Shown here: positions 47,885 to 53,937 of the stretch, piece by piece
Numbering within the stretch: position 1 is the first letter of the stretch
Layout: each line of letters starts with the position of its first letter
Assembly (NCBI RefSeq): GCF_004403465.1
Contig: NZ_SOGQ01000032.1
Location: 27,795 to 91,794, forward strand
Length of the DNA: 64,000 bases
Source of the DNA: Cryobacterium sinapicolor
GTDB lineage: Bacteria > Actinomycetota > Actinomycetes > Actinomycetales > Microbacteriaceae
Direction: 5' to 3'
Translations under genes and position numbers: made by a program
The notes under the pieces: generated by a model
What the model was told of the DNA's origin: nothing
Databases searched by the model: none
What the model saw: the letters and a program-made list of their open reading frames with translations, nothing else

Positions 47885-48073
47885 TGTCAATAGGGCCCGT
47901 TCTGGTCCTGGGAGCAACGACAGCAGTGTCGGTGTGAATAGCCCGGGACTTGACATGGGTCCTAGTACTGCCCAAAATCCACACTGCTCAGGCCACTTCC
48001 CGCCAGATCCATTCGGTCGGGACCCGCCTGGCAGCGCCGCAGGCTCCCGGGCCACGGCATGAGAGGTGTTCGA

Positions 48074-49387
48074 ATGGCAACCCGCACAAAAATCGAGCAG
48101 ACCGAAGAGCCCACCGCGAGCACACCTGAGGCTCCGGACGCAGCTGCGCCGGCGCCCAAGGCCGCCGCCGTGAAGAAGCCGACCAAGGCGGCCCTGGCCA
48201 AGGCCGCGGCTGCGGCTGCGGCTGCGGCTGCGAACGGTGAAGAGAAGCCCGCACCGCGCAAGCGCGCCGCCAGCACCAAAGCCAAAGCCAAGCCGGCGTC
48301 CGACGAGCACGATGAGGCCGGGCACGGCGACGACGCGGATGCCGACGACGACTCCGACGAAGCCAAGAAGAAGCGTGCAGCATCGGCCGAAGCGCTGCCG
48401 AGTGGTGCTCTGGTGCTGTCTCTCGTCGACGACGACGACGAGGTGCCGGTTTACTCCAGCGCAATCACCGGCGCGACGGCCGACCCAGTCAAGGACTACC
48501 TGAAGCAGATCGGCAAGGTCGCCCTGCTGAACGCCGCCGAAGAGGTCGAGCTCGCGATGCGAATCGAAGCGGGGCTGTTCGCCGAGGACAAGATGTCCCA
48601 GATGACCGATTCCGAGAAGAAGAGCGCCCTCGGCCGCGAACTCCTGTGGGTCGCCAAGGACGGCGCCCGCGCCAAGAGCCACCTCCTGGGTGCCAACCTG
48701 CGCCTGGTCGTCTCGCTCGCCAAGCGCTACACGGGCCGCGGAATGCAGTTCCTCGACCTGATCCAGGAGGGCAACCTGGGCCTGATCCGTGCGGTCGAGA
48801 AGTTCGACTACACCAAGGGCTTCAAGTTCTCCACCTACGCCACCTGGTGGATCCGTCAAGCGATCACGCGTGCCATGGCCGACCAGGCCCGCACGATCCG
48901 CATCCCGGTGCACATGGTCGAAGTCATCAACAAGCTGGCCCGAGTGCAGCGCCAGATGCTTCAGGACCTCGGCCGGGAGCCCACGCCGGAAGAGCTGAGT
49001 CGCGAACTGGACATGACGCCGGAGAAGGTTGTGGAGGTTCAAAAGTACGGCCGGGAACCCATCTCCTTGCATACTCCGCTCGGCGAAGACGGCGACAGCG
49101 AATTCGGCGACCTGATCGAGGACACGGAGGCCGTCGTCCCCGCTGACGCGGTCGGGTTCACCATGCTGCAGAAGCAGCTTGAGAGCCTGCTCGACTCGCT
49201 CTCCGAGCGCGAAGCCGGCGTCATCCGAATGCGCTTCGGCCTCGGCGACGGCATGCCGAAGACTCTCGACCAGATCGGCGACACGTTCGGCGTGACGCGG
49301 GAGCGCATCCGTCAGATCGAGTCGAAGACCATGGCCAAACTGCGTCACCCCTCACGGTCGCAGTCCCTACGCGACTACCTCGAATAG
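48074..49387 (+). CDS. sigA: Principal RNA polymerase sigma factor
   Basis: A 437-residue group 1 sigma factor. The first ~125 residues are an Ala/Lys/Asp-rich, low-complexity region 1.1-type extension. Region 1.2 starts near [16 protein letters not shown]. Region 2 contains [20 protein letters not shown] and [18 protein letters not shown], which recognise the -10 element. Region 4 has the helix-turn-helix [20 protein letters not shown] for the -35. It directs housekeeping transcription. ATG 48074 has GAGAGG seven bases upstream. The murT start lies only eight bases after its stop, so wall genes may share its transcript. Confidence 0.96.
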
Positions 49388-49395
49388 AGATCGGT

Positions 49396-50664
49396 TTGCG
49401 CTACGCGCCGGCGATTCTCCTCGGACGAGTCGTACGGAAACTGGCCCGATGGAGGAAGCCGGGCGGCGGATCCGCGATCCCCGGCCTCGTGGTCAACAGG
49501 ATCGCACCTGGGTTCCTTCCCCGCACCCTCAACAGCTTCCCCGGTGGACTGGTCATCGTCACCGGGTCAAGCGGCAAATCAACCACGACCAAAATGCTGG
49601 TCGCGGCTCTCCGCGCTCACGGCATGGTCGTCTTCACCAACCAGTCCACGGCCAACATAAGTCAGGGTCTGACCTCGGCGCTGCTCGAGCAGGCGAGCCT
49701 GAGCGGCCATATCGCGGGCGACATCGCCGTGCTGGAGATGGATGAGGGCCATGGCGCCCTCATCTCCGGTTCGCTGACGCCGCGCGTAGTCGCTTTGACG
49801 AACGTCATGGTCGACCAGATCGATCGGTTCCATGACTCGGACATGGTCGCGGCGATGCTCGCGAAGATCGCCGCCAGAGCTACCGGAACCGTCGTGATCA
49901 ACGCGGACGATCAGTACCTGACCGCCCTGGCCGCTCGCCTCGACGGCACCTCTGCAATCGCTCGCTACGGAGTTTCCGCAGAAGTTCTCGCTGCCAACCC
50001 GCGGGGCCTCGGCTACAGTGCGACCACCACTTCCCGGCTGGACGAGGGAGAGGGGATGCTTCTCACTTCGGTGCACGGACGCCGCGCGACCGTGAGCATT
50101 GCGGGGGTGGGGTACCCGATCGGGTTGCCCGCCCGCGGCACGCACTATGCCGTGGACGCCTTGACCGCGCTGAGCACAGCGCGGGCCGCACTCGGTGGAC
50201 GCTTCGATCCAGTGCTGGCCATCGGTGCCATTTCGGCCATTCCTCCGGTCTTCGGCCGTGGCGAGATCGTCACGGTCCGGGGTCGGCAGGTCGAATTCGT
50301 GCTGGTGCAGAATCCGGCCAGTTTCCAGTTGAACGTCGACAGTCTCGAACCGGGGACCGATCAGATCCTCATCGCAATCGGGTCCGACGTGCGCGACCCG
50401 TCGTACTTCTGGCCCGTGAACACCTCGAGCCTGGGCCGGGTCCGCATCGCGTCCGGATCGAAGGCGCAGGACATCGCCCTTCAGCTTGTCTACGACGACG
50501 TGGTCGTCGACCGCATCGAGTCGGACCTGGGCCTGGCCCTGGACGAGTTCCTGGCGCTGCCGGAACCACTCACGGGTTTGAAAACGATCATTTTCTCCGC
50601 GGACTCCATGCGACGCACCAGGGCACACCTGGGGCTCGTCACCAACAAGGAGGAGCAGGAATGA
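49396..50664 (+). CDS. murT: MurT-like Mur ligase, atypical
   Basis: A 422-residue Mur-ligase-family protein with a central ATPase domain and a C-terminal DUF1727 domain, the architecture of MurT of the lipid II isoglutaminyl synthase. The P-loop is VTGSSGKSTTTKM (usual form TGTNGKTTT), and ALTNVMVDQIDRF and NADD follow. It is atypical: there is no cysteine anywhere, so the four-Cys zinc ribbon normally between ~200 and 250 is absent. The C-terminal motifs usually seen as NPAGFN and DVSW-W-D-x-D-F read NPASFQ and DPSYFWPVNTS. The TTG start at 49396 lies eight bases after sigA. It overlaps gatD by four bases, so the two surely form one complex. The reaction may differ from amidation. Confidence 0.82.
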   Translation: MRYAPAILLGRVVRKLARWRKPGGGSAIPGLVVNRIAPGFLPRTLNSFPGGLVIVTGSSGKSTTTKMLVAALRAHGMVVFTNQSTANISQGLTSALLEQASLSGHIAGDIAVLEMDEGHGALISGSLTPRVVALTNVMVDQIDRFHDSDMVAAMLAKIAARATGTVVINADDQYLTALAARLDGTSAIARYGVSAEVLAANPRGLGYSATTTSRLDEGEGMLLTSVHGRRATVSIAGVGYPIGLPARGTHYAVDALTALSTARAALGGRFDPVLAIGAISAIPPVFGRGEIVTVRGRQVEFVLVQNPASFQLNVDSLEPGTDQILIAIGSDVRDPSYFWPVNTSSLGRVRIASGSKAQDIALQLVYDDVVVDRIESDLGLALDEFLALPEPLTGLKTIIFSADSMRRTRAHLGLVTNKEEQE

Positions 50665-51389
50665 CCCGTCCGCTCTCGATCGTGTCACTGCTACCCGAAC
50701 TCCTCGGTACCAACGGCGATGCCGCCAACGCCCGCGTTCTCGCCCAGCGGGCTCGGTGGGCCGGTGTTGAGGCCGCCGTGGTGGAGGTGCGTTCCTCGGC
50801 TGATCTGCCCGACCAGGTCGACGCCGTCATCGTCGGATCGGGCTCCGACGCCGATCTGGTGCGCGCCAGGGACATCCTGGCGACGATGACCACGGAGTTG
50901 CGCACCTGGGCCACTGCGGGTGTCCCGATCCTCCTGGTCGGAACCGGCTGGGAACTCCTGAGCTGGGGCATAGAACTCGGCGACGGAACCGTCGTCGAGG
51001 GGCTGGGCATCCTGGCCGGTCGCGCTGTGCCGATGCCGGCACGCGCCACGGATGACATCGTGGTCACCTCCCGACACGGCCGGCTGATCGGTTTTGAGAA
51101 CCATTCCCGCAGCTACGTCGGCGCCGAGGCGTCGCCGCTCGGCCAAGTGCTTTACGGAACCGGCAATGGCGCGGGTTCCGAGGGACTCGTCATGGGCAGC
51201 GTCGTCGGTACTCATCTGCACGGGCCTGTGCTCGCCCGAAATCCCGGTCTTGCCGACCACCTCCTGCGCACTGCTCTGGTGCGCATCGGACACGAATACC
51301 GTCCCGGCGGACATTCGTCGGCCGCTGACGACATGGCAAAAGCCGCACGCAACCAGGTTGCGGTACGGCTCGGACTTCCAACAGAGTAG
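50661..51389 (+). CDS. gatD: GatD-like glutamine amidotransferase, catalytic Cys missing
   Basis: A 242-residue class I glutamine amidotransferase-fold (CobB/CobQ-type) protein paired with MurT. Functional GatD releases ammonia from glutamine with a catalytic Cys in a L-x-I-C-G-G-x-Q motif. Here the segment reads PILLVGTGWELLSWG, with Gly94 in the Cys position and Glu98 in place of the Gln, and the protein contains no cysteine. The His-containing end VVGTHLHGPVLARNPGLAD is retained. The fold and MurT interface may be kept while glutaminase chemistry is lost. The ATG overlaps the murT stop (ATGA). Reading frame and length are intact, so this is not a decayed gene. Confidence 0.82.
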   Translation: MTRPLSIVSLLPELLGTNGDAANARVLAQRARWAGVEAAVVEVRSSADLPDQVDAVIVGSGSDADLVRARDILATMTTELRTWATAGVPILLVGTGWELLSWGIELGDGTVVEGLGILAGRAVPMPARATDDIVVTSRHGRLIGFENHSRSYVGAEASPLGQVLYGTGNGAGSEGLVMGSVVGTHLHGPVLARNPGLADHLLRTALVRIGHEYRPGGHSSAADDMAKAARNQVAVRLGLPTE

Positions 51390-51447: not shown

Positions 51448-51684
51448 TTAGGAGCGCTGATCCTCGAGGAGGCGGCTCGACTCGTCGTGCCAGCTCTCCG
51501 CGATGGCGGCGAGCTTCTCCTGGTGCTTGCGACCGTGGTGTGCACAGAACAACAGCTCGCTGTTGTTCACGACCACACGGATGTAGGCCTGAGCCCCACA
51601 CGCATCACAGCGGTCTGCCGCGGTGAGCTGGTGGGGAGCCTTCTCTTGGTTGATGGCACCATTCTCGGCTGCGATCTGGGACAT
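51448..51684 (-). CDS. DUF7455 small zinc-binding-like protein
   Basis: A 78-residue protein with CDACG and, 17 residues on, FCAHH, a C-x2-C...C-x2-H pattern that could bind zinc. The rest is charged and helical. I recognise it as the actinobacterial DUF7455 family, which usually sits near sigA and the topoisomerase gene as here. Its function is unknown; a role in RNA polymerase or DNA binding is a guess. The ATG 51684 has a strong GGAGGAAA Shine-Dalgarno four bases upstream. It is divergent from parE. Confidence 0.82.
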   Translation of the reverse strand: MSQIAAENGAINQEKAPHQLTAADRCDACGAQAYIRVVVNNSELLFCAHHGRKHQEKLAAIAESWHDESSRLLEDQRS

Positions 51685-51841
51685 GGTTTCCTCCTCCAGA
51701 CTGATACCAACTGATACCAATTTAACCTGTACTCCATGGAAACACGGTCCGGCGCGGATATCGAGTCGGGGGACCGCTATTTCGCTCACCGCGTAGTGCA
51801 CTTCGATCGGGTGTCGACGTCTGGCGGGGAGCGCCGACCGG

Positions 51842-51847
51842 TATTCT
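51842..51847 (+). promoter_or_regulatory. Candidate -10 box TATTCT of the topoisomerase B gene
   Basis: TATTCT lies eight bases before the GTG at 51856. The spacing allows a leaderless or nearly leaderless message. Confidence 0.4.
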
Positions 51848-51855
51848 TGATTGTT

Positions 51856-53937
51856 GTGAGTTCTTCTGATTATTCCGCCCGCCACCTGTCTGTACTCGAA
51901 GGGCTGGAAGCGGTTCGCAAACGTCCGGGCATGTACATCGGGTCCACCGACTCGCGGGGGCTCATGCACTGTCTCTGGGAGATCATCGACAACTCGGTCG
52001 ACGAGGCGTTGGGTGGATTCGGCAGCAGCATCGATATCGTGCTTCACGCGGACGAGAGCGTCGAAGTGCGCGACACGGCCCGCGGTGTGCCGGTTGACAT
52101 CGAGCCCAAAACGGGACTGACCGGGGTCGAGGTCGTCTTCACCAAACTGCACGCGGGCGGCAAGTTCGGCAGCGGGTCGTATGCGGCGTCCGGCGGACTG
52201 CACGGTGTGGGGGCATCCGTTGTCAACGCCCTGTCCGAACGTCTCGACGTCGAAGTCGACCGAGACGGCAAGACCTGGGCAATGTCCTTCCACCGTGGCG
52301 AACCGGGGATCTTCGCGGATTCGGGCGAGAAGAGCCCCGACGCGCCCTTCACACCCTTCGAGAAGCAGAGTGAGCTCCGCGTCATCGGCAAAGTCAAGCG
52401 TGGCGTGACCGGCACGCGAGTGCGCTACTGGGCCGACCGCCAGATCTTCACCAAGGGCGCGGCATTTCAGACCGAGGAATTGCTCGAACGGGCGCGCCAG
52501 ACGGCCTTCCTCGTGCCGGGCCTGGGGATCGAGATCGCGGACCAGCGCACTGACGTGCACGTGCTCAAGTCCTTCAAGTTCGAGGGTGGGATCTCGGAGT
52601 TCGTCGACCACCTCGCCACCGACAGCCCGATCACCGACACCTGGCGCCTCACCGGCAATGGGACCTTCCGGGAGACCGTCCCGGTTCTGACCCCCACGGG
52701 CGCCATGGTGCCCACCGAGCTGGTCCGGGACTGCGCCGTGGATATCGCCCTTCGCTGGGGGACAGGGTACGACACCGTCGTCCGCAGTTTCGTGAACATC
52801 ATAGCCACGCCGAAGGGCGGAACGCACCAGGCCGGTTTCGACGCGGGCCTGCTCAAATTTCTCCGTGCCCAGGTTGAGTTGAACGCCCGTCGACTCAAAA
52901 TGGGGTCCGACAAGCTGGAGAAAGACGACGTGATGGCCGGCCTCACCGCAGTGCTCACCGTGCGGCTGCCCGAGCCTCAGTTCGAGGGGCAGACCAAGGA
53001 GGTGCTCGGCACACCCGCGGTTCGCGCCATCGTCGCCAACGTCGTCGCCCAGGCCATGAACGAGCGATTCGTGTCGACGAAGCGGGACGACAAGATGCAG
53101 GCCGCGGTCGTGCTGGACAAGATCGTGGCCGAGATGAAATCGCGCATCTCGGCTCGTGCCCACAAGGAGACCCAGCGCCGCAAGAACGCACTGGAGAGTT
53201 CGTCTCTACCCGCAAAACTGGTCGACTGCCGCAGCAACGACGTGTCGACGAGTGAACTCTTCATCGTCGAAGGAGACTCCGCACTGGGAACAGCCAAGCT
53301 CGCTCGGGATAGTGAACACCAGGCGCTCCTGCCCATTCGCGGCAAGATCCTGAACGTGCAGAAGGCATCCGTCGCCGACATGCTGTCCAACGTCGAGTGC
53401 GCATCGATCATCCAGGTGATCGGCGCCGGTTCCGGCCGGAGTTTCGACCTGTCCGCCGCCCGCTACGGCAAGGTCATCATTATGAGCGACGCGGACGTGG
53501 ACGGCGCGCACATCCGGACGCTGTTGCTCACCCTGTTCTTCCGCTACATGCGCCCGATGATCACGGAGGGCCGCGTTTTCGCGGCCGTCCCGCCACTCCA
53601 CCGGGTCGTGGTGATGAACCCGGGGACGAAGCCTAATGAAACCATCTACACCTATTCGGAGGTCGAACTTCAGGCCGTCCTTGCCGGCCTCAAAAAGAGC
53701 GGAAAGCGCTATCAGGATCCGATCCAGCGGTACAAGGGTCTGGGCGAGATGGATGCCGACCAGCTTGCGACAACGACGATGGAGCGGGCGCACCGCACTC
53801 TGCGCCGGGTGAGGGTCGCCGACGCCGAGATGGCCGGAAACGTTTTCGAACTCCTGATGGGCAACGACGTCGCCCCGCGCAAGGAATTCATCATCGAAAG
53901 TTCGGACAAACTCAGTCGCGACCGCATCGACGTGTGA
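51856..53937 (+). CDS. parE: Type IIA topoisomerase subunit B (ParE/GyrB-like)
   Basis: A 693-residue ATPase subunit of a type II topoisomerase. The GHKL ATP site starts with VLEGLEAVRKRPGMYIG and has EIIDNSVDEALGG and ASGGLHGVGASVVNALS. The TOPRIM domain has FIVEGDSALGTAKLAR, LPIRGKILNVQKAS and MSDADVDGAHIRTLLL. The C-terminus is PIQRYKGLGEMDADQLATTT. A separate gyrase is usually present near oriC in these genomes, so this pair is taken as topoisomerase IV; that is an inference. Its partner subunit A is encoded at 54721-57204 in the opposite direction, with an SDR gene between. Confidence 0.9.
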   Translation: MSSSDYSARHLSVLEGLEAVRKRPGMYIGSTDSRGLMHCLWEIIDNSVDEALGGFGSSIDIVLHADESVEVRDTARGVPVDIEPKTGLTGVEVVFTKLHAGGKFGSGSYAASGGLHGVGASVVNALSERLDVEVDRDGKTWAMSFHRGEPGIFADSGEKSPDAPFTPFEKQSELRVIGKVKRGVTGTRVRYWADRQIFTKGAAFQTEELLERARQTAFLVPGLGIEIADQRTDVHVLKSFKFEGGISEFVDHLATDSPITDTWRLTGNGTFRETVPVLTPTGAMVPTELVRDCAVDIALRWGTGYDTVVRSFVNIIATPKGGTHQAGFDAGLLKFLRAQVELNARRLKMGSDKLEKDDVMAGLTAVLTVRLPEPQFEGQTKEVLGTPAVRAIVANVVAQAMNERFVSTKRDDKMQAAVVLDKIVAEMKSRISARAHKETQRRKNALESSSLPAKLVDCRSNDVSTSELFIVEGDSALGTAKLARDSEHQALLPIRGKILNVQKASVADMLSNVECASIIQVIGAGSGRSFDLSAARYGKVIIMSDADVDGAHIRTLLLTLFFRYMRPMITEGRVFAAVPPLHRVVVMNPGTKPNETIYTYSEVELQAVLAGLKKSGKRYQDPIQRYKGLGEMDADQLATTTMERAHRTLRRVRVADAEMAGNVFELLMGNDVAPRKEFIIESSDKLSRDRIDV

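Follow-up and report, generated by a model that had tools for sequence, protein, structure and literature searches.

What can a MurT/GatD pair do when its glutaminase subunit has no nucleophile? This question is raised by a locus in a 64,000-nucleotide stretch of the Cryobacterium sinapicolor genome (contig NZ_SOGQ01000032.1), which as a whole is called the window here. The locus comprises a murT-like gene and a gatD homologue. GatD* denotes a GatD homologue without nucleophile, and MurT* the MurT partner of a Cys-less GatD. In group-B peptidoglycan, a long-used taxonomic marker, the bridge starts at the alpha-carboxyl of D-Glu. Walls of this group also occur beyond the Actinomycetota, in Erysipelothrix and Eubacterium/Acetobacterium. 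To our knowledge, no enzyme has been assigned to the building of this branch, and we know of no described family of group-B cross-bridge ligases. Sequence comparisons make it likely that MurT*-GatD* builds this D-Glu alpha-carboxyl branch as an ATP-dependent ligase, with GatD* acting as a structural pseudo-glutaminase.

In a HMMER alignment, the former nucleophile elbow of the window GatD* (PILLVGTGWELL) is paired with that of S. aureus GatD (PGLTICGGYQFL): Cys94 is replaced by Gly94 and Gln98 by Glu98. The His of THLHGP is retained, not a single Cys is present among the 242 residues, and gatD* overlaps murT* by 4 nt (ATGA). These features had been listed in the initial annotation and were all reproduced. 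In addition, Arg128 is retained, and according to a model, GatD* keeps the GatD fold. The scores are far below the NCBIfam equivalog cut-offs, with 105.6 and 76.2 bits for GatD* (cut-offs 450 and 400) and 79.2 and 74.3 bits for MurT* (cut-off 800). Because of these scores and the missing defining Cys, the pair was not filed as an isoglutaminyl synthase. A second, intact murT-gatD pair, which had been suggested as a check, was rejected: the window genome yielded a single GatD match and a single MurT match at E ≤ 1e-40. With median ratios of nonsynonymous to synonymous substitution rates (dN/dS) of 0.19 (gatD*) and 0.13 (murT*) among 15 sequences, both genes are under purifying selection.

Residues were compared in 161 Cys-less GatDs and 160 MurT* rows, near-copies being kept and L177 and L178 standing outside the Cys-containing rows. 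Cys94, the trait by which the rows were grouped, occurs in 0/161 Cys-less relatives and in 50/50 Cys-containing rows. Position 95 is T, G, A, S, N, L or M and position 98 is E, Q, D, H, K, S or Y in the Cys-less proteins. The triad His is kept in 115 of the 161 and replaced in 46. No conserved Cys column was found among these 161 relatives, the maximum being 8 rows per column, all from Cryobacterium; a Cys relocated elsewhere in the fold, another check proposed at the outset, was thus rejected. Glutaminase activity with Thr95, Glu98 or a differently placed Cys as the nucleophile is very improbable. His187 and Arg128 are present in the window GatD*, but positions 95 and 98 vary, no Cys is conserved and the triad His is often replaced. 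Furthermore, as far as the available excerpts of this and the other papers cited here go, the S. aureus exchange C94S abolished activity (PMC6113224), and C94G abolished all glutamine-dependent activity (PMC3266927).

On the MurT* side of the pair, the ligase residues are intact. All 12 tested sites are invariant in 160/160 MurT* rows, among them Lys61, Asn87, Glu114, Asp116, Glu117, Asn136, Asp140, Arg144, Arg288 and Asp334. The MurT residues equivalent to Glu114, Asp116 and Glu117 serve Mg and the acceptor carboxylate (PMC6085368). Asp334 corresponds to Asp349 of S. aureus MurT, the third triad residue (PMC6113224), and is kept in every row despite the loss of the GatD Cys. Pfam assigns Mur_ligase_M (PF08245, E 2e-16) to the window MurT*, and MurT_C (PF08353) reaches 24.5 bits at a cut-off of 25. 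The window MurT* has no Cys at all and hence no zinc-ribbon Cys tetrad. Ribbon Cys are found in only about 10 of 52 compared MurTs that accompany a Cys-containing GatD, so their loss is no sign of repurposing and was rejected as a hallmark of the pair.

S. aureus provides a precedent for such a complex. There, MurT without GatD is inactive, and the pair uses glutamine and, at pH 8.5, NH3 as nitrogen donors, but no other. GatD-C94G, which at position 94 is identical to the window GatD*, has lost glutamine-dependent amidation of lipid II, but the complex still uses NH3 at pH 8.5. At pH 7.5, NH3 is used neither by the mutant nor by the wild type (all PMC3266927). A nucleophile-less complex is thus able to ligate a free amine, GatD being a structural component. 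MurT*-GatD* probably shares its acyl-phosphate chemistry with the isoglutaminyl synthases of S. aureus, S. pneumoniae and mycobacteria. It differs from them in that Cys94 is absent from each of the 161 Cys-less GatDs, Gln98 and the stretch following the Cys are remodelled, the proteins form a separate clade and the genes are located between sigA and parE. The Mur ligases MurC-F employ the same ATP-dependent acyl-phosphate chemistry with the amine of a free amino acid as donor, as proposed here for MurT*-GatD*. In contrast to them, MurT* has a GatD-type partner and only Mur_ligase_M and a borderline MurT_C in Pfam; the best solved-structure matches are MurT, not MurC-F. Archaeal pseudomurein MurT/GatD are MurT relatives in the lineage of another wall polymer, where some MurT-like proteins lack GatD; unlike in Microbacteriaceae, no loss of the GatD Cys is described in the accessible part of that paper (PMC11915815). 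Similarly, the available text of a survey calls murTgatD universally present in Actinobacteria and mentions no Cys loss (PMC6085368).

The following mechanism is proposed. Like MurT, MurT* would phosphorylate the alpha-carboxyl of D-Glu in a lipid-linked or uridine diphosphate-linked precursor. The acyl phosphate would then be attacked by a free (di)amino acid through its amino group, which takes the place of the channelled ammonia. The donor would be D-diaminobutyric acid (D-DAB) in Cryobacterium and D-Orn or D-Lys in a MurT* subclade termed B-i (see below). GatD* would be an obligatory structural subunit, and its emptied glutaminase pocket may, with Gly94, Gly96 and MurT* Asp334, help to form the amino-acid site. 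The residue added in this way would be the group-B interpeptide bridge.

The main rival is ammonia-dependent amidation, in which MurT* still makes D-isoGln, now from free ammonia, and GatD* is structural only. Carbamoyl-phosphate synthetases that have lost the glutaminase Cys use free ammonia and offer an analogy. All tested MurT ligase residues are present in MurT*, too, and the S. aureus C94G complex, which retains NH3 activity at pH 8.5, needs GatD physically. However, amidation would block the bridge, which in group B is attached at the D-Glu alpha-carboxyl. It also leaves unexplained why the MurT* type follows the bridge amino acid and why there are racemase-like and CofE-like neighbours (see below), and at pH 7.5 NH3 was not used even by the wild type (PMC3266927). 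We regard amidation as unlikely.

The loss of the Cys is not a property of one genome but marks most Microbacteriaceae genera sampled. A GatD match was found in 57/57 Cryobacterium genomes, and the VGTGWELL elbow in 15/15 Cryobacterium loci read, the window's own being included in both counts. Position 94 was read in 164 Microbacteriaceae loci: 128 have Gly there, 22 Ala, 3 Asn, 2 Thr, 2 Ser and 7 Cys. Since the coded and named sets may share genomes, 164 counts loci, not species; four Cys-less loci under other record names (L099, L131, L154 'Cellulomonadaceae' and L157 'Planococcus') are kept apart from it. Thus, GatD lacks the Cys in 157/164 loci of this family versus 0/42 in eight other Micrococcales families, where Cys, His and Gln are all present in 42/42 loci (41 genomes). 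The latter are among the matches read from an order survey, in which 145/248 genomes matched, many of them weakly, Microbacteriaceae included. Among 46 coded Microbacteriaceae genera read, 40 have only Cys-less copies, one (g13) has only a Cys-containing copy and five have both. In a class-wide survey, 107/196 genomes matched at E ≤ 1e-15, and the Cys is present in 38 of the 40 non-Microbacteriaceae loci read among these matches (39 genomes). Both exceptions (L307, L310) belong to family f38 and carry Asp at the Cys position (VDAGMAALCR), a loss unrelated to that in Microbacteriaceae. As judged from sequence, Cys loss is fixed in one clade, with GatD* as a predicted pseudoenzyme subunit across most Microbacteriaceae genera sampled. 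A decaying gene, an assembly error or chance would account for the lost nucleophile, but for nothing further. Matches in all 57 Cryobacterium genomes, a dN/dS of 0.19, a single MurT* clade, a conserved locus and Cys-less copies in 45 of the 46 coded genera leave this explanation practically negligible, and it was rejected.

MurT* forms one clade. In a MurT tree of 127 rows, from which GatD-less loci and MurTs shorter than 360 aa were dropped and in which same-state clusters with >82% identity were merged, this clade comprises 85 rows, with a value of 100 in the Shimodaira-Hasegawa-like approximate likelihood ratio test (SH-aLRT). It was recovered in a bootstrapped tree (48/74 rows, support 100/100), which excludes Cys-less rows without genus name (the window was kept) and as many as 17 rows that were long or distant. 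None of the trees contains the diverged MurT* of L235, L240, L253, L260 and L271-L275. Within the clade, subclade B-i (bootstrap 98, SH-aLRT 93) holds genera with Orn or Lys in the bridge, and the labelled MurT* rows outside it are from genera with a DAB bridge. For Plantibacter, Pseudoclavibacter, Amnibacterium, Galbitalea, Curtobacterium, Okibacterium and Microcella, an assumed bridge label was used. The others were taken from papers: DAB of type B2-gamma for Cryobacterium, D-Lys of type B2-beta for Frigoribacterium and Lys/Orn for Salinibacterium (PMC7033078), 'l-DAB connected to d-Orn' for Agreia (PMC5945732), B2-gamma for Agromyces aureus (PMC5217419) and for Clavibacter (PMC5358740), D- and L-DAB for Herbiconiux (PMC10011130), and D-Orn, L-Lys or DAB, depending on the species, for Microbacterium (PMC10757982). 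Rathayibacter and Leifsonia are former B2-gamma Clavibacter or, according to a cited title, DAB-containing (PMC5882085). No mismatch between MurT* type and bridge occurs in the 29 rows labelled from papers or in the 45 rows labelled from papers or assumption. These rows exclude records titled 'isolate', metagenome-assembled genomes (MAGs) and label-less genera such as Arenivirga, Ruicaihuangia and Antiquaquibacter; the latter is the record 'Salinibacterium soli' (L166), which was left unlabelled.

The flanking genes tell another history. The sigA and parE sequences of the window place it in Cryobacterium and are 97% identical to those of C. cryoconiti (1027 columns). The B-i genomes do not group together on the sigA+parE tree, which requires 7 changes, at least 3 of them forced by starred branches. 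Agreia is the sister of Herbiconiux (97) and Okibacterium that of Plantibacter (95). For trees of 32 isolates, 46 labelled isolates were reduced by 13 near-copies and by L167, which has no parE. On these, the bridge labels require 6 changes on the sigA+parE tree, 1 on the murT* tree and 2 on the gatD* tree, and a single Orn/Lys clade is rejected on the sigA+parE tree (approximately unbiased test, p-AU 0.00044). Judged by these trees, the MurT* type goes with the bridge diamino acid (DAB versus Orn/Lys) and not with the flanking-gene tree.

Agreia is an informative case because stem DAB and bridge Orn differ there. It has a B-i pair, and its flanking-tree sister Herbiconiux (DAB) does not, so that the pair type goes with the bridge residue and not with the stem residue. 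This bears on another alternative, according to which the pair ligates a different wall substituent, e.g. a residue that co-varies with the bridge, uses another carboxyl, or is regulatory. Stem position 3 and bridge do co-vary in most genera, and sequence does not reveal which carboxyl is the substrate. On the other hand, MurT* shares its acceptor-side residues with MurT, which acts on the alpha-carboxyl of D-Glu, and Agreia, albeit a single genus, separates stem from bridge. This alternative is improbable.

Two of the records deserve a comment. On both trees, L157 (record 'Planococcus') clusters with Microbacterium, and the 'Cryobacterium' MAG L156 lies outside Cryobacterium; the two are probably mislabelled.

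The sigA-parE locus itself was read in 125 cases. In the named Microbacteriaceae loci, sigA is located upstream wherever the contig extends and parE downstream in most; in L109 and L167, about 1 kb separates sigA from murT*. The 125 loci comprise the best 80 of 425 relatives found with the MurT* query (including L164, L165, L169 and L175-L178 from other groups) and a further 45 that were reached by way of sigA. Among 106 complete loci, i.e. those with parE, 74 contain MurT*-GatD*, 15 a CofE-like gene instead, none both, one the racemase pair alone and 16 none of these; because 80 loci came from the MurT* query and 45 were picked for weak, missing or odd matches, these counts are not population frequencies. 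Their main point is the mutual exclusion of MurT*-GatD* and the CofE-like ligase. Other open reading frames may occupy module-less loci: L269 has three, and L266 contains an 18-bit MurT match. The CofE-like proteins belong to Pfam F420_ligase (4/4 tested). An ATPgrasp_ST-like protein (Pfam, 3/3 tested) accompanies the CofE-like gene in 13/15 loci and MurT*-GatD* in 2/74.

Two alanine-racemase-like genes are found in 26/74 MurT*-GatD* loci and in 9/15 CofE-like loci; the assignment was checked by Pfam on three pairs. In alanine racemases, the lysine binds pyridoxal phosphate (PLP) and the tyrosine of the VSYG motif is catalytic. Gene one has the PLP-lysine motif in 34/40 cases (6 had no pattern match) and VSYG in 0/40, gene two VSYG in 39/40 and the motif lysine in 0/21 pattern-matched cases. 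The pair looks like one racemase split over two proteins and, by its motifs, would suit the supply of D-diamino acids.

Genomes without a match were read at their sigA locus, too. Of 20 such genomes, 12 have a CofE-like gene, one (G085) a diverged murT*-gatD*, one the racemase pair only and five none of the modules; one contig ended. The sigA loci of a further 49 no-match genomes mostly lay outside the reading. Few candidates were scored per genome, and the misses of the genome search are not all true absences. The initial annotation's picture of a repurposed pair acting on D-Glu, with GatD structural, gains indirect support from the clade-fixed Cys loss, the intact ligase residues, the agreement of MurT* type and bridge and the racemase-like genes in part of the loci. 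The pair is not present in every genus: at the same locus, some carry a CofE-like gene and others no tested module, and a few of the latter have a Cys-containing pair at another site.

Several points weigh against a bridge ligase. The S. aureus pair took only glutamine and NH3, so that an amino acid as donor would be a novelty. On the murT* tree of 32 rows, the branch that separates Orn from DAB is supported at only 60. The bridge labels are at genus level, those of 7/17 genera are assumed, those of Microbacterium were set by genus with a bridge chemistry that varies by species, and L157 was labelled as Microbacterium. By record name, L139 (MAG), L166 and L156 (MAG) would be mismatches. As it was the MurT tree that had first drawn attention to the pattern, the bridge tests are post hoc. 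The well-supported independent contrasts number only 2 with paper labels or 4 when assumed ones are added (on all branches, 4 and 6); each points in the expected direction, and the sign test is not significant. The GatD Cys has also been lost in the unrelated family f38 (Asp, 2 loci). The racemase pair is absent from the window locus, which leaves the source of D-DAB unexplained; one search for the short racemase subunit in the window genome matched a single Alr-type gene. Finally, some Microbacteriaceae lack the MurT*-GatD* pair; should they have group-B walls, the pair cannot be the sole route.

With these points considered, a ligase of the D-Glu alpha-carboxyl branch remains our preferred reading. 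If it is true, the ligase of the group-B cross-bridge has been named, a glutamine amidotransferase has become an amino-acid ligase by loss of its nucleophile while the partner was kept, and bridge chemistry can be read from the genome. Among the open-licence papers listed for MurT/GatD together with Microbacteriaceae or group-B wording, none gave such a description, and no paper was found to contain GatD, MurT and Microbacteriaceae at once. In MurT*-GatD*, a predicted pseudoenzyme subunit appears fixed across most sampled genera of one bacterial family, and its role is directly testable. More tentatively, and with somewhat less conviction than doubt, the sigA-parE interval may be viewed as a swappable cross-bridge cassette. 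In it, MurT*-GatD* and the CofE-like ligase, usually with the ATP-grasp protein, would have displaced each other, the split racemase would supply D-diamino acids, and ligase transfer between lineages would switch between DAB and Orn/Lys.

The features of the window locus are compiled in Table 1. The flanking genes are presumably sigA and parE/gyrB. Frames similar to the small DUF7455 protein are located close to parE in most named loci.

Table 1. Features of the murT*-gatD* locus in the window (positions refer to the window)
Feature	Position	Strand	Remark
sigA-type sigma factor, upstream anchor	48059..49387	+	presumed name, sequence similarity
murT*, Mur-ligase-type ATPase subunit, 422 aa, TTG start	49396..50664	+	
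MurT* P-loop GSSGKST (Lys61)	49564..49584	+	Lys61 in 160/160 MurT* rows
MurT* Glu114/Asp116/Glu117, Mg and acceptor-carboxylate residues	49735..49746	+	each in 160/160 rows
MurT* Asp334 (S. aureus MurT Asp349), third triad residue	50395..50397	+	160/160 rows
gatD*, GatD homologue without nucleophile, 242 aa, ATG start	50661..51389	+	
Former nucleophile elbow LLVGTGWELL of gatD*	50931..50960	+	Gly94 codon 50940-50942, Glu98 codon 50952-50954
His187 of gatD*, triad His of GatD (S. aureus His189)	51219..51221	+	present in window
Small DUF7455 protein between gatD* and parE, Cys-containing	51448..51705	-	PF24254, E 1e-24
parE/gyrB-type topoisomerase subunit, downstream anchor, start codon uncertain	51736..53937	+	

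Individual loci illustrate the variety of the interval. CofE-like genes between sigA and parE are found, e.g., in L251:50-743(+), L238:97-796(+) and L233:66-762(+). An ATPgrasp_ST-like gene adjoins the MurT*-GatD* pair in L099:6063-7070(-) and in L240. Overlapping racemase-like pairs near murT*-gatD* are present in L127 (6078-7130 and 7127-7906, -), L142 (6040-6660 and 6651-7685, +) and L143 (5924-7066 and 6988-7737, -). In L262 and L263 (g13), L265 (g44), L248 (g4) and L270 (g65), parE follows within about 0.7 kb of sigA, with no modules between. A g13 genome has a Cys-containing GatD elsewhere (L095), and the g44, g4 and g65 genomes have MurT scores at canonical level. Naasia lichenicola (L109:4001-5239) encodes a MurT* without adjoining GatD* match; by eye, the next frame is transporter-like. 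Strongly diverged murT*-gatD* are located at the sigA-parE locus in L235, L240, L272 and L273, with the elbow FLFTHNAAEVL in L235 and a short GatD frame in L273.

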